64,000 nucleotides of DNA from Fibrisoma montanum (GTDB lineage Bacteria; Bacteroidota; Bacteroidia; Cytophagales; Spirosomataceae). The position numbers were made by a program, and so were the translations under genes. Positions 56,850 through 61,612 of this stretch are shown piece after piece. The DNA lies in assembly GCF_003583365.1 (NCBI RefSeq), contig NZ_QXED01000004.1, positions 310,001-374,000 on the forward strand, in the 5' to 3' direction. Within the stretch, counting starts at the first letter, position 1. Each line of letters opens with the position of its first letter. The notes under the pieces are model-generated. The model saw only the letters and a program-made list of their open reading frames with translations, was not told where the DNA came from and made no database searches.

Positions 56850-57002
56850 TAAGACGATGCTGCTCGCTGTCTATCAGGCAACTAATAATTGTCCGGGTAT
56901 TTGTCCGGGTGGGTTTTCTTTGCTGTCAATCCGAAGTTACATAGGTTAACGCAAGCTTTCCGCTTCTACCTTTTAACTTTTTCCTATATAAAAAACTTCA
57001 CT

Positions 57003-57710
57003 ATGAAAAAGCTTGCACTCACCCTCCTCATTCTTCCGGCTTTCTGCCTGCTGGCCACCGCCCAGACCATGCCCACAGCCGACGAAGTCATTGACAAATA
57101 CCTTGCGGCCATCGGCGGTAAAAAAGCCCTGATGAAGGTCAAAGACGTGACGTCTGAGGGCTCGTTACAGTACGATAATGCCCTGATAAAAATCTCGTTA
57201 AAGCGTAAAGCACCGGCTAAGGCAATGACGCTGATTACGGGCGACAATGGCCAGCTTCTTTACAAATTTGTGACAGATGGGACCAGCGCGGTCGATGTTA
57301 CCCAGCAGGGTACCAACCGCCAAAGTGAACAGAATACCCGACTTTCCCTGATGTATAACCGGTTTTGCCCAGAGCTGGTGTACAAAGCAGAAAGCATCAA
57401 ATCGACGCTTGAGGGTAAGGAGCCGATCGACGGTCAGGAGGCTTATAAAGTCACCAGTACGTTTGCTGATGGTACCCCTTTTTGTACCAACTATTACGAC
57501 GTGGCAACCGGCCTGAAAGTACAGACGATTATCAAGTGGGACCAGAACCGTACCGCCACGCTTAAGCCTAGCGATTACAGGGCGGTCGATGGCGTAAAGA
57601 TCCCGTTTGTTTCGATGTACCAGGAAAACGGTGGCGGTGTGTCCAAGACCCAACTAAACTCGGTCCAGATCAACAAAGGCGTCAGCGACACTGAGTTCAA
57701 CGTGCAGTAA
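57003..57710 (+). CDS. LolA-like outer-membrane lipoprotein-sorting fold protein (tandem copy 1)
   Basis: A 235-residue exported protein. The ATG at 57003 gives signal peptide MKKLALTLLILPAFCLLATA; 38 upstream in-frame codons look non-coding. The mature part begins TMPTADEVIDKYLAAIGGKKALMKVKDVTSEGS, the opening seen in LolA/LolB-like 'lipoprotein-sorting' domain proteins of Bacteroidota. KAPAKAMTLITGDNG, KVTSTFADGTPFCTNYYDVATGLKVQ and RAVDGVKIPF follow. Such proteins bind hydrophobic ligands in the envelope; the cargo is unknown. It shares the GGKKALMKVKDVTS block with the next gene. Confidence 0.82.
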   Translation: MKKLALTLLILPAFCLLATAQTMPTADEVIDKYLAAIGGKKALMKVKDVTSEGSLQYDNALIKISLKRKAPAKAMTLITGDNGQLLYKFVTDGTSAVDVTQQGTNRQSEQNTRLSLMYNRFCPELVYKAESIKSTLEGKEPIDGQEAYKVTSTFADGTPFCTNYYDVATGLKVQTIIKWDQNRTATLKPSDYRAVDGVKIPFVSMYQENGGGVSKTQLNSVQINKGVSDTEFNVQ

Positions 57711-57738: not shown

Positions 57739-58443
57739 ATGAAAAAGCTATTTCTTACCCTGCTCCTCTTACCTGTTCTTCTCGGATCGGCTACCGCCCA
57801 GACCCTGCCCACGGCCGACGAAGTCATCAACAAGTACCTTACGGCCATCGGCGGTAAAAAAGCCCTGATGAAGGTCAAAGACGTGACCTCTCAGTTAACA
57901 CTGCAGGTTAATGACATTCCTTTGCAACTTACGACTAAGCAAAAAGCCCCGGCTAAGTCATTACAGATCACAACCGATGACAAGGGCCAGCTTATTTACA
58001 AAACTGCAACCGATGGTACCCGCATGATAGCGGTTAGTCCGCAGGGGACGGTTCCTGTGAATGGGCCAATTGCCAAACGTTCGATCATGGCCTATGGATT
58101 ATTTCCGGAGCTGTCGTACAAAGCAGAAGGCATCAAGTCAACGGTTGAGGGCAAGGAACAGATTGATGGTCGCGATACGTATAAAGTAACCAGCACATTC
58201 GCAGACGGTAGTCCATTGTGGACAGATTACTATGATGCCGAAACCGGACTGAAAGTGCAGAACATTGGCATGTTTGATACAGATGGAGCTAGAACCACCA
58301 AGTTTACCGACTACAAAGAGGTGAACGGGGTGAAAATTCCATTTAGCACGAACATTGTGTCGCAGAGCATGACTATTTCATTGAAATTGAATTCAGTAGA
58401 AGTTAACAAAGGCATTAGCGACGCGGAGTTTGCGGTTCAGTAA
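57739..58443 (+). CDS. LolA-like outer-membrane lipoprotein-sorting fold protein (tandem copy 2)
   Basis: A 234-residue tandem paralog 28 bases downstream of the first copy. Signal peptide MKKLFLTLLLLPVLLGSATA. The first ~60 residues are nearly the same as copy 1 (TLPTADEVINKYLTAIGGKK). The middle has diverged (LTLQVNDIPLQLTTKQKAPAKSLQITTDDKG, MIAVSPQGTVPVNGPIAKRS), while the end stays close (FTDYKEVNGVKIPFSTNI). Unequal divergence after tandem duplication suggests different ligands in the same transport step. A strong hairpin after the stop closes the two-gene unit. Confidence 0.85.
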   Translation: MKKLFLTLLLLPVLLGSATAQTLPTADEVINKYLTAIGGKKALMKVKDVTSQLTLQVNDIPLQLTTKQKAPAKSLQITTDDKGQLIYKTATDGTRMIAVSPQGTVPVNGPIAKRSIMAYGLFPELSYKAEGIKSTVEGKEQIDGRDTYKVTSTFADGSPLWTDYYDAETGLKVQNIGMFDTDGARTTKFTDYKEVNGVKIPFSTNIVSQSMTISLKLNSVEVNKGISDAEFAVQ

Positions 58444-58583: not shown

Positions 58584-60275
58584 TTACAGCAAACTCTCTT
58601 TCACCTGCGTATCAAACACGCCCGTCAGTACGCGGCCGTTGCGCTTGACCTGAATCCAGATGCGGTAGTGGCCCGCCCGTGGGAACGCATACGGAAACTC
58701 AACCATGTTGTTGACGGTCATGGTGTGGTTCATCGTGGGCATGGCGGCCATGATCAGCTTGTTCTTTTCGGCTTCCGGTAAATTCCTGAGCTTCGCTACG
58801 TACGCATCAATACTGTCTCGGAAGAGTTTAGGGTCGGGGAGTTTCACCGTCCGGGCTGTATCAGCAATGCGGCTGACCATCGACTCTTCGGCCGCCATGG
58901 AATACGTACCGACCGGGTGCAGGTGAATGTAGACCGTACCATCGGAGCGCACAATGGCTGCGTGACCGCTCATGCCCAGATACGGTTCCAGTTTGGCGGC
59001 TTTGCCCTGCTCGTCGGCAACGGCAAATTTGAGCATATAGGGCTTGCCGACTTCCAGAATTGGGCTGGGTTTGTCGGTCCAGACCATAGTGGACCCGTCG
59101 TCCAGTCTGGCACTGGCACTTGGCTTGCCGCAACTCACCATGTCATCGTCGAGGTGCAGCTTGCCGATGGCGTTCGATTTGACCCCCATCGGTTCGGTAA
59201 CCAGCCAGCTATCGTCGGCATCCGTTGGCGTGCGGGCGGCTGCCTGTTCGGCCGATAGCTTGACGAAAGGCACCTCGACCGTATCCGTCAGCGTTTCGGC
59301 ATAACCCGACCGGTACACGACATCGGCGTAGAGCAGGTACCGCCCACCGGGCAGCGCCGGCAATTTCGACTCATACCGCAACGTATCACGTCGGTCGGGA
59401 TGGAGGTGCGCAAAGGCGTCCAGACCGGGCGTTCTGACCAGAAAAACGTGCATCAGCTTCCCGTGGTCGGGCACGATAAAACTCAGCGGCCGACGCCACC
59501 GACGGTTCTGCGCAAAGCCGGTCGTGTCGACCTGAATCGTAAGAGCAAGCTGGCCGTTCTCGGGTTTTACAACGGAGTTGACAGGAAGTCGGCGGTAGAG
59601 CTGATCGGTCTGATATTCATCGGCCCAACTGTCCCACCAGGTTCGTCCACCGGCCAGCAGCAGCACCAGCAGTACTGCGCCGATGCTCATGCCGACGATC
59701 CGTTTCCGGCGGAACACGGGCGGGGCCGACTGGCCGGGCTGGAGAGTCCCATCGGCCGAACTGGCTCCGATGATGGTCACCATCAGTACGACCAGCAACA
59801 AACCCAGTATCGACAGGATAATACCGGTTTCGGCGGGCATGGTTCGCTGGGCCGTGGCTACCGACATCACCGGCGCGACCACCGTTGCTTTTCCGTCGGG
59901 GCCGTCGATCTGGAGTTCAACACTCGTGGAACCACTTTCCATGAACCAGACGTCGCCGGTAAACTGCGTGGATGAGACCGCGTTGAGTTGATCATGCGTA
60001 GGGGCCCCTTCGTCGCCGGTCCAGAAATACACCGGCCGGGCCTGAATGGTTTTAACCTGTCCCTGCTCCACAAATACAGTCACCTTAGCGGTTCCCGGCA
60101 CAACGTCCGGTGGCTGCACATTGATCAGCACCCGGTACTTACCGGCCTGTTTCTGCACCAGCACACCGGGGCTGCCCACGTGAGCGTAGCTGATGAGCGA
60201 AAGGGCAAATGCGTAAATGAATGAATAAAGGAAGACGAGTTTGTTGCCTCGCGACCAGATTCGGGTTGGATTCAT
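58584..60275 (-). CDS. His-rich envelope protein with PmoB-like layout
   Basis: A 563-residue protein. The signal peptide probably ends SYA|H, leaving His32 as the mature N-terminus, as in the copper subunit PmoB (His33 in M. capsulatus). A beta domain (~32-140) is followed by helix 1 (~150-170), a cytoplasmic loop, helix 2 (~196-210) and then a large His-rich extracytoplasmic part. That part has DHGKLMHVFLV, AFAHLHP (H290, H292), a YtkA-like strand set (LPALPGGRYLLYADVVYRSG) and a repeat of the pattern at GHAAIVRSDGTVYIHLHP (H438, H451, H453). The order signal - His - beta domain - two helices - beta domain is that of PmoB, but the PmoB HxH in the first domain is absent. Copper binding is inferred. 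Confidence 0.6.
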   Translation of the reverse strand: MNPTRIWSRGNKLVFLYSFIYAFALSLISYAHVGSPGVLVQKQAGKYRVLINVQPPDVVPGTAKVTVFVEQGQVKTIQARPVYFWTGDEGAPTHDQLNAVSSTQFTGDVWFMESGSTSVELQIDGPDGKATVVAPVMSVATAQRTMPAETGIILSILGLLLVVLMVTIIGASSADGTLQPGQSAPPVFRRKRIVGMSIGAVLLVLLLAGGRTWWDSWADEYQTDQLYRRLPVNSVVKPENGQLALTIQVDTTGFAQNRRWRRPLSFIVPDHGKLMHVFLVRTPGLDAFAHLHPDRRDTLRYESKLPALPGGRYLLYADVVYRSGYAETLTDTVEVPFVKLSAEQAAARTPTDADDSWLVTEPMGVKSNAIGKLHLDDDMVSCGKPSASARLDDGSTMVWTDKPSPILEVGKPYMLKFAVADEQGKAAKLEPYLGMSGHAAIVRSDGTVYIHLHPVGTYSMAAEESMVSRIADTARTVKLPDPKLFRDSIDAYVAKLRNLPEAEKNKLIMAAMPTMNHTMTVNNMVEFPYAFPRAGHYRIWIQVKRNGRVLTGVFDTQVKESLL

Positions 60276-60300
60276 GGTTGTTTGGTTTCTTTTGCGTTCG

Positions 60301-60360
60301 GGTCTGACGGTACGTCAGACCCGTTTGTTTGAGTCAGGCGGTCTGACGTATCGTCAGACC
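60301..60360. repeat. Twin 21-base palindromes between the PmoB-like and PmoC-like genes
   Basis: GGTCTGACG-N3-CGTCAGACC occurs twice, at 60301-60321 (centre GTA) and 60340-60360 (centre TAT), 18 bases apart. The first is extended by one more G-C pair. Together they occupy most of the 113-base gap between two co-directional genes. They could be operators, or mRNA hairpins setting the ratio of the two proteins. A degenerate half-copy lies near 58542-58560. Confidence 0.8.
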
Positions 60361-60388
60361 ATTGGGCTCCGGTCTGGCCTCCTTTTCC

Positions 60389-61612
60389 TTACCTCACTAC
60401 CCGTTTCATCCAGTTGCCCCACCAGAGGCCAATCCGGGCGGAGATGGCCGCGTATAGGATGGCAAACGCAAAGTTTTTGGCGAATACGGCCGTTGGCTCC
60501 AGCAGACCTGGGTGGAACTCGTAGCGGTACTTCCAGTCCGGAGGGCTGTCGTATGACCACGCGTTCGACAGGAAGAACCAGTTGCGGGCGTAGGGCGACG
60601 TGTGCAGGAACTCCCCAAACGGCCATTGAACCGCCAGGAACAGCACCATGAAGACAACCGCGGCAAGACCAGCCAGTATCCAGTCGTTGCCTTTATAGCG
60701 TTTCATGAGCTGGTCCAGCGCAAAGGCCGGTACGATCAGCAGCAGCGGAAACGAAAACGCCTGATACGTCGTGATGGGGTTATACACCGGACCAAGCTTG
60801 GGTGTAGCCGAAAACAGAGGCAGTATCCAGTTGGGAAGCAGCAGCGTGATCATGTATACGGCCGTGATGATCGTAATCGGGTTCTTCAGCATCGACGCCC
60901 GGCCAACCGCCAGCAGGTAGATCGGAAAGGCGATGGCGGCTGTGGTGTAGCAGAGGGAGTTGTGCATCAGCCACTTGCCCATGTTTTCAGACAGCAGAAC
61001 GTACAAGACCGTCAGCAGCAGGCCGGCGGCAATACCGAACAGCAGTTTCAGGCGGCTGGCCCGTCGCTGGTCCAGGTCGTTGGTCAGGGTTTGGCTGCGG
61101 GTGCGGTTCTGCAGCGCCAGCACCCCGATCATCGCTCCGAATTGCACCATCATCATGCCCAGCACCAGCACCGTATGCGGGGGTGTCAGAATCTGGACAT
61201 CCAGTCCGTAGGTGTTGTGCCACCAATCGTCGAAAGGGGCCGAGGTTAGCATGGCCATAGCACCCCACACGCAATAAAGCGCGCCCAGCGAGCCGTAGAA
61301 AACACCCCAGAAGCGAACGGAACCGGCCCGCTCGGGGTGTTTTTTTTGAAAGGTCATGCTGAGGATCTGGTAACCCGAAAACAGGCCGGATACGACAGCG
61401 CCGACGTACATGACCAGGTGCGGAGGAGCAAACAGCCCATCGCGGCCGATGCTGATGTGCCACATGATGTCCCAGAGCAGCCCCCAGACAATACATAATG
61501 ACGCAAACACGACAGCATAGACGTACGTGGGAATGCCCAGCCGCCAGTCAATGGCGCGGGACCGGACAGCTTCAGCCGAGGGAGAAAAGGAGGAAGGGAT
61601 CGTTGATTCCAT
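60389..61612 (-). CDS. Multi-pass membrane protein with PmoC-like metal-ligand spacing
   Basis: A 407-residue protein with about ten membrane helices. Helices 1-2 carry WDIMWHISIGRDGLFAPPH: D48-x3-H52-x12-H65. Helices 3-4 carry DDWWHNTYGLDVQILTPPH: D128-x3-H132-x13-H146. These spacings equal those of the CuC site (D156, H160, H173) and the CuD site (N227, H231, H245) of particulate methane monooxygenase subunit PmoC, and H..I.RD..F.P.H residues also align. Overall length and helix number differ from PmoC (about 250-290 residues), so homology is distant at best. It is upstream of the PmoB-like gene, likely in one operon. A PmoA-like gene is not seen. Substrate unknown. Confidence 0.6.
   Translation of the reverse strand: MESTIPSSFSPSAEAVRSRAIDWRLGIPTYVYAVVFASLCIVWGLLWDIMWHISIGRDGLFAPPHLVMYVGAVVSGLFSGYQILSMTFQKKHPERAGSVRFWGVFYGSLGALYCVWGAMAMLTSAPFDDWWHNTYGLDVQILTPPHTVLVLGMMMVQFGAMIGVLALQNRTRSQTLTNDLDQRRASRLKLLFGIAAGLLLTVLYVLLSENMGKWLMHNSLCYTTAAIAFPIYLLAVGRASMLKNPITIITAVYMITLLLPNWILPLFSATPKLGPVYNPITTYQAFSFPLLLIVPAFALDQLMKRYKGNDWILAGLAAVVFMVLFLAVQWPFGEFLHTSPYARNWFFLSNAWSYDSPPDWKYRYEFHPGLLEPTAVFAKNFAFAILYAAISARIGLWWGNWMKRVVR

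Follow-up and report, generated by a model that had tools for sequence, protein, structure and literature searches.

Methane and ammonia are oxidised by particulate methane monooxygenase (pMMO) and ammonia monooxygenase (AMO), respectively, and the former does not lend itself easily to biochemical study. The excerpts that we draw on describe the copper-site ligands of pMMO and the position of Phe177 (PMC12576850), an active CuD site that is neutral and contains Asn227, with a carboxylate at CuC that changes the oxidation state of copper (PMC11194816), and a PmoB chain that begins at His33, a ligand of the CuB site (PMC6572826). In a phylogeny of recognised xmoCAB operons (PMC6215863), thaumarchaeal AMO is taken as the most distant group. 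Here we describe a pair of genes from the bacterium Fibrisoma montanum that is very probably, and with good support, akin to the pMMO/AMO fold. The pair lies on the minus strand of a stretch of 64,000 nucleotides (contig NZ_QXED01000004.1, positions 310,001 to 374,000; hereafter the window, to which coordinates refer unless a locus is named). Gene 1 (60389-61612) encodes a protein of 407 amino acids with ten predicted membrane helices, in which a PmoC-like core and a PmoA-like half appear to be joined in one chain. Gene 2 (58584-60275), directly 3' of gene 1 at a spacing of 113 bases, encodes a predicted exported copper-module protein of 563 amino acids with a PmoB-like order of parts.

An initial annotation of the window had proposed the two proteins as possible distant relatives of PmoC and PmoB. 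Both open reading frames are where it placed them, and the relation to PmoC and the pairing of the genes held up in our analysis; the kinship of gene 2 to PmoB was not borne out. The annotation overlooked the putative PmoA-like half, the existence of another such pair elsewhere in this genome, and the relatives in Actinomycetota.

Paired metal sites and the profile match to PmoC

Gene 1 carries two motifs, D48-x3-H52-x12-H65 (the CuC-like site, 61418-61471) and D128-x3-H132-x13-H146 (the CuD-like site, 61175-61231), that have exactly the spacings of the CuC and CuD sites of PmoC, with the six residues at the numbers first given for them. We aligned the window protein with 81 copies from 80 loci, and D48, H52, R57, D58, H65, Y69, D128, W131, H132 and H146 were invariant in 82 of 82 rows. 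The same ten residues were invariant in the 66-row alignment used for folding, which includes the second copy in the genome. R57 and D58 lie within the first site and Y69 just behind it. This site is in register with D156/H160/R165/D166/H173 of PmoC, and by the same register Tyr69 is an aromatic residue at the position of Phe177. At the second site the ligand column holds Asp in all 82 gene 1 rows, compared with Asn227 in 62 of 62 reference PmoC rows. D129 is also constant in 82 of 82 rows, yet it is Asn in the second copy (locus L101) and in locus L106, and we therefore did not use it.

For direct comparison we used an M. capsulatus PmoC sequence that is identical to PDB 7ev9_C over 260 of 260 residues. 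At the first site, DGTWHQTIVRDTDFTPSH of PmoC aligns with DIMWHISIGRDGLFAPPH of gene 1 and 9 of 18 positions are identical (D..WH..I.RD..F.P.H), consistent with the further shared residues that had been noticed there; at the second, NEWGHTFWFMEELFVAPLH aligns with DDWWHNTYGLDVQILTPPH and 4 of 19 are identical. The paired motif is more than a chance occurrence. Among 882 open reading frames outside the family, taken from around loci L021-L100 (L001-L020 were omitted as repeats of the family), five carried the first motif, five the second and none both in order; of 20,000 shuffles of the gene 1 protein, none carried both.

The kinship also appears when profiles are compared. A gene 1 profile of 66 rows matched a PmoC profile of 62 rows (56 IMG/VR contigs, five plasmids and one PDB entry) in HHalign with an E value of 6.3e-4 and a score of 34.8. 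The alignment covers residues 48-158 and brings both metal sites into register; the reversed PmoC profile, used as a control, gave E 0.21. The Actinobacterial relatives described below matched PmoC with E 1.7e-4 when used alone and 2.6e-4 when combined with the Bacteroidota family. The scores of the three profiles (Bacteroidota, Actinomycetota and both) were 34.8, 39.4 and 37.5, all above the 52 unrelated neighbour families that served as controls, which peaked at 23.65; the HHalign probability of the match was 28-49%. The distant relation to PmoC that had been proposed thus passed a check by profile. This link is seen solely through profile-profile comparison and the sites, because a HMMER search of all PDB sequences with the gene 1 profile returned no match; PDB sequence searches with single proteins and profiles gave no rows or chance rows. 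Gene 1 matched no Pfam family at E <= 1, CopD included, and 0 families in NCBIfam and PADLOC, and neither protein of the pair had a real Pfam or NCBIfam match. The AmoC Pfam model found nothing in the genome of F. montanum and was equally silent on control genomes, so that this result does not imply absence.

When families are compared, the two metal-site hairpins of gene 1 (60392-61612) align with one another (HHalign E 1.8e-4 and 5.8e-4), a sign that an internal duplication may have given rise to the CuC-like and CuD-like sites. PmoC may share this origin of its sites.

Predicted fold of gene 1 and the parts of gene 2

An AlphaFold2 model of gene 1 (mean pLDDT 88.1, pTM 0.88) shows ten long helices, in agreement with the approximate number first counted. 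We ran VIA-align on Foldseek's 1000 best chains; one row is displayed per PDB entry, which hides the other chains of that entry. The first 14 rows were all PmoA or AmoA chains (Z 14.0 to 9.1), aligned to model residues 173-407 over 168-206 residues at 3.1-4.4 Å and 11-17% identity, and the first row after them was unrelated, with Z 6.2. A PmoC chain, 7s4m_C, was aligned to model residues 17..162 (Z 4.8, 3.6 Å, 135 aligned). Taken together, the PmoC match at residues 48-158 and the PmoA/AmoA fold at 173-407 lead to a model in which gene 1 would be a fusion of a PmoC core (residues 29-172, four helices, 61097-61528) with a PmoA-like half (residues 175-407, six model helices, 60392-61090). The initial annotation had seen no PmoA gene; there is indeed no separate one, but the second half of the 407-residue protein has a PmoA-like predicted fold. 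By sequence, the best PmoA stretch (gene 1 residues 286-331, FPLLLIVPAFALDQLM versus FPASLVPGAIILDTVLM) lies near the position implied by the structural ranges, and a PmoA scan of viral contigs gave no true match.

In the model, D48 and H52 stand at the end of helix 29-54 and H65 at the start of helix 63-88; at the second site, D128 and H132 are at the end of helix 109-135 and H146 is at the start of helix 144-172. The two site loops contain 1 and 0 Lys/Arg residues, and the first three loops on the opposite side contain 3, 4 and 0. This distribution suggests that both sites face the periplasm, and we place them there as the probable orientation.

Gene 2 has the order of parts of PmoB. A predicted signal peptide (residues 1-31, 60183-60275) precedes His32 (60180-60182), the expected first residue of the mature protein, and is followed by a first periplasmic beta domain in the model (residues 33-146, 59838-60179) and by two membrane helices within residues 148-224 (59604-59834), predicted from hydropathy and the model. 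The remainder is a two-domain His-rich module with the motifs DHGKLMH, AFAHLHP and GHAAI...YIHLHP (residues 225-563, 58587-59603). His32 is invariant in 78 of 78 rows. The residue before it is A in 68, G in 8 and S in 2, and the residue at -3 is A, S, V, L, G or T. This pattern resembles a signal-peptidase site immediately upstream of the His, and inspection supports cleavage before His32 and the N-terminal His that had been predicted. The His of the AFAHLHP and YIHLHP clusters, also picked out at the start, are invariant in 78 of 78 rows. The HxH of the PmoB CuB site is absent, by reading, from the first beta domain, as first observed.

For the first beta domain, VIA-align returned a tie between CrdA (9ll2_A, Z 10.2, 2.5 Å, 99 aligned) and a carbohydrate-binding module (5t7a_A, Z 10.2); the last beta domain (residues 384..558) resembled CrdA (9ll4_A, Z 10.5, 2.2 Å, 101 aligned). 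Foldseek gave 41 rows at E <= 0.001 for the gene 2 model, among those listed generic beta-sandwich proteins. PmoB did not appear among the 50 VIA-align rows listed for the whole 563-residue model, and the gene 2 profile matched PmoB with an E value of only 0.22. We therefore do not claim gene 2 as a relative of PmoB, and retain only the order of parts from the earlier assignment.

The His-rich module has relatives of its own. It was homologous to all four exported proteins tried, from Tsukamurella, Hymenobacter, Priestia and Gloeocapsa (HHalign E 3.6e-12 to 8.7e-17), which were picked from 25 matching plasmid records. Three of these (Tsukamurella, Gloeocapsa and Hymenobacter) adjoin genes for a heavy-metal ATPase, or for a heavy-metal-domain protein and RND proteins. 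A genome that has no gene 1 holds only the His-rich half of gene 2 (G032:C1:319045-320034, profile positions 223-550), and the module can thus stand by itself.

Distribution, neighbourhood and Actinobacterial relatives

Of 59 close genomes, 21 contain gene 1, as do 5 of 395 genomes drawn across the phylum; both counts include the F. montanum genome. A twenty-second match among the close genomes (G051; E 5e-5, 27%, part of a 1285-residue frame) was dropped as chance. In a scan of GTDB with patterns from the window protein, 80 of 322 relatives were kept and examined, and 79 of these 80 carry the names of Bacteroidota. Gene 2 directly follows gene 1 in 77 of the 80 loci, and in the remaining three the contig ends 119-163 bases past gene 1. 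Among the 21 close genomes with gene 1, gene 2 is present at full length in 20: in 19 of these it adjoins gene 1, and in one it lies at a contig break. The other genome, G033, has gene 2 as fragments only. The survey that had been suggested for the pair across Bacteroidota thus shows the two genes to be conserved together. Four gene 2 matches had been flagged for an internal stop, and in all four the stop is the last codon of the match.

The F. montanum genome (about 7.8 Mb) contains a second pair (L101, 7047-9924) with 50-54% identity to the first, and gene 2 again lies right behind gene 1. The window gene 1 is 95% identical to the copy in Fibrisoma limi. Tandem duplications of gene 1 occur in L022 (5980-8488), where both copies keep the site residues, and in L112 (G005:C1:314102-318514), where a single gene 2 follows.

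Beyond the pair itself, no neighbour is constant among the 117 neighbour families of the 80 loci. A P-type ATPase gene, present in 3 of 80 loci, and an NlpC/P60 gene that occurs close to Dyadobacter loci were judged to be local. The gap between the genes (60276-60388) contains two near-identical 19-bp palindromes (60302-60320 and 60341-60359; GTCTGACGNNNCGTCAGAC). We considered these as operators and rejected them, as the pattern has 14 sites in the genome, compared with none for a reversed control pattern, and is a dispersed small palindromic repeat. Elsewhere in the window, two adjacent exported proteins of 273 and 234 amino acids (56889-57710 and 57739-58443) are clearly alike and represent a local tandem duplication; the smaller has a weak LolA-like match. 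At locus L021, three related open reading frames (cluster 93) lie behind gene 2 in the position that these two proteins occupy in the window.

Relatives outside Bacteroidota were sought by tblastn in plasmid records. Eight Actinomycetota records matched (E 4e-8 to 6e-2) and a second query added Streptomyces mirabilis, so that relatives of gene 1 are found on plasmids of Mycolicibacterium, Streptomyces, Leifsonia, Rubrobacter and Nonomuraea. A profile of six Actinobacterial proteins matched the Bacteroidota gene 1 family with an E value of 1.6e-19. Across eight such proteins, the x13 spacing of site 2 is kept in 8 of 8 and the x12 spacing of site 1 in 6 of 8, the exceptions being x14 in M. vanbaalenii and x11 in Nonomuraea; over eight remote members, 14 columns are invariant, among them the Asp and the two His of each site. 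Five Actinobacterial proteins (two from Streptomyces and those from Leifsonia, M. chubuense and M. aubagnense) continue beyond the membrane part, within one chain, with a signal-like A-x-A and HDPGQG. At loci L194, L196, L197, L199 and L209 the A-x-A stands right before HDPGQG, as if cleavage exposed a mature N-terminal His. On the Rubrobacter marinus plasmid (L193, 4908-6022), the relative is not annotated as one gene and its frame appears broken.

Seven of the plasmid loci are annotated and non-duplicate. In four of them the relative of gene 1 lies within 5-6 kb of genes for CopC, a cupredoxin, a multicopper oxidase, a four-helix copper protein or heavy-metal ATPases, and in two others a YHS protein and/or a CopY/BlaI-type regulator is nearby.

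A possible role in copper handling and its relation to known systems

We propose that the pair encodes a copper-binding membrane complex whose likeliest job is copper handling rather than methane or alkane oxidation, a tentative reading to which we assign a probability of roughly 0.45. Each Asp-His-His site of gene 1, at helix ends on the periplasmic side of the model, would probably hold copper. Gene 2 would be exported, cleaved to start with His and anchored by its two helices, with its His/Met-rich copper module on the periplasmic side and copper bound through the first His and the H.HP module. It would probably cap gene 1 and pass copper, perhaps electrons too, to it; the resulting complex at the inner membrane could serve copper binding, oxidation or delivery. 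The change from Asn to Asp at CuD adds charge to a site that is neutral in pMMO, which argues against pMMO-like chemistry, as far as the excerpt of PMC11194816 describes it. A carboxylate at both sites makes methane-type chemistry less likely and, together with the copper contexts of the relatives, favours copper handling.

Several results count against this reading or against the kinship on which it builds. The copper contexts stem from plasmids alone, a class of replicon rich in metal resistance, and even there copper genes are missing within 5 kb of the gene 1 relative in Rubrobacter and within 4 kb of the module relative in Priestia. In Bacteroidota, a Pfam scan of 107 of the 117 neighbour families (nine of the ten omitted were among the longest) revealed none that was copper-specific among the 25 of 121 families listed. 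Conservation of the sites, R57 and D58 included, is as expected of an enzyme. As to kinship, neither protein matched the Pfam models of the copper membrane monooxygenases (CuMMOs; AmoC, AMO and Monooxygenase_B) at E <= 1 or E <= 0.1, and known PmoC, PmoA and PmoB, used as positive controls, matched them strongly. The 52 control families include few strongly hydrophobic membrane proteins, which makes them an imperfect control for the PmoC match. Kinship to PmoA by sequence had to be rejected as evidence, with a best profile score of 24.86 (18.45 for the gene 1 profile alone) against a control maximum of 24.75. Foldseek found no row at E <= 0.001 for the gene 1 model in PDB and viral structures, and in VIA-align a model made of helices may score as high as Z 14 with no true relative behind it; the weight of the structural result therefore rests on the fact that 14 rows belong to a single family, which is known to partner PmoC, and that the two parts follow the operon order.

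A true oxygenase, that is, a divergent copper membrane monooxygenase with two Asp-His-His sites and a hydrophobic substrate other than methane, strikes us as unlikely. In its favour, both sites, the equivalents of Arg165 and Asp166, and Tyr69 at the position of Phe177 (ligands as given in the excerpt of PMC12576850) are invariant in 82 of 82 rows; the PmoA-like half and an exported third part would complete the order C, A, B; and in six of the 80 loci, all from Larkinella, the pair is followed by a cytochrome c-like gene (cluster 22). Against this, Asn227 of CuD is replaced by Asp and the CuB HxH is absent. Excerpts of the literature report that verrucomicrobial PmoB likewise lacks the CuB ligands (PMC6572826) and that some archaeal CuMMOs also lack the D site (PMC9038741). 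Moreover, no substrate pathway genes were recognised beside the pair in the 80 loci, for which the 107 neighbour families were scanned, and several relatives lie in metal-resistance surroundings.

In CopC-CopD systems, a His-first beta domain protein is combined with a multi-helix membrane protein, and the pair has the same order. It could accordingly be read as an exported copper binder with a membrane importer or a feeder of a respiratory oxidase, without redox chemistry of its own and with a likeness to PmoC limited to the hairpins. Two gene 2 domains resemble CrdA, which the excerpt of PMC9182242 describes as similar to CopC, and TlpA, CcdA, ResB or CcsB are found near some Actinobacterial relatives. 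The structural match of residues 173-407 to PmoA and the PmoC register would be unexpected of CopD, however, and gene 1 has no match at E <= 1 to CopD or to any other Pfam family, which leaves this reading improbable. Least probable of all is that the Asp/His helix hairpins arose independently and that the PmoA match reflects a common helical arrangement: the HHalign probability is low in absolute terms, the Foldseek search was empty and a Z of 14 is within reach of helical models, but the two sites are in register together with R, D, F, P and W, the scores exceed those of 52 of 52 controls, and the best 14 structural rows all belong to the family known to partner PmoC, with the C part preceding the A part.

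The pair may belong to a deep sister branch of the pMMO/AMO fold in which both sites are Asp-His-His; Bacteroidota would have a C-A fusion and a separate exported protein, and some Actinomycetota the parts joined in a single chain. We hold this view with some reserve; such a branch may preserve a copper-handling state ancestral to the methane and ammonia oxygenases, or may be a new oxygenase class in ordinary soil heterotrophs. If so, it would provide a non-methanotrophic outgroup from culturable bacteria, with both copper sites of PmoC, that could root the pMMO/AMO family, and would let one ask whether pMMO and AMO arose from copper handling. With Asp naturally replacing Asn at what is regarded as the active site, and with its simple two-gene layout, it would offer a test of which parts oxygen chemistry requires. 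Because the bacteria are easily grown, such a relative could serve as a useful model for pMMO. In open-access literature, with most subscription papers and all bioRxiv preprints outside the scope of the search, we found no description of such a gene pair.

On sequence grounds we do not file the pair as a CuMMO, because it is unmatched by the Pfam models and has neither the Asn of CuD nor the HxH of CuB; nor does gene 1 have the CopD Pfam domain (E <= 1) of CopC-CopD systems. For CrdA of Helicobacter pylori, the likeness lies in the predicted fold of two beta domains of gene 2, the first and the last (the first tied with an unrelated carbohydrate-binding module); according to the excerpt of PMC9182242, CrdA lacks His and uses methionines. 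Plasmid H.HP proteins (Gloeocapsa WP_015328528.1 and Hymenobacter WP_264694549.1) share the whole two-domain module, with E values down to 8.7e-17, and lack the His-first beta domain and the two helices. PmoB/AmoB (PF04744) has the order of parts predicted for gene 2, in which a signal peptide and a His at the mature N terminus are followed by a beta domain, two helices and further beta domains; it differs in its CuB HxH and in having no His-rich two-domain module. The profile comparison gave E 0.22, and gene 2 had no match to the Pfam model. PmoA/AmoA (PF02461) corresponds to residues 173-407 of gene 1 in predicted fold (Z up to 14.0 over about 200 residues) and in its place after the PmoC part. 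Here the differences are the 11-17% identity, a sequence profile not clearly above controls and the single chain shared with the PmoC part. The Actinobacterial plasmid relatives share the PmoC-like core and differ in their exceptions to the site 1 spacing and in the fused A-x-A/HDPGQG part of five proteins. From PmoC/AmoC (PF04896) itself, gene 1 is distinguished by Asp in place of the CuD Asn, by the putative fused PmoA-like half, by the lack of a Pfam match and by a region in which the PmoC residues before the first site are unmatched in sequence; the two share both site spacings and their order, the D, H and H of CuC, the two His of CuD and the equivalents of R165 and D166.

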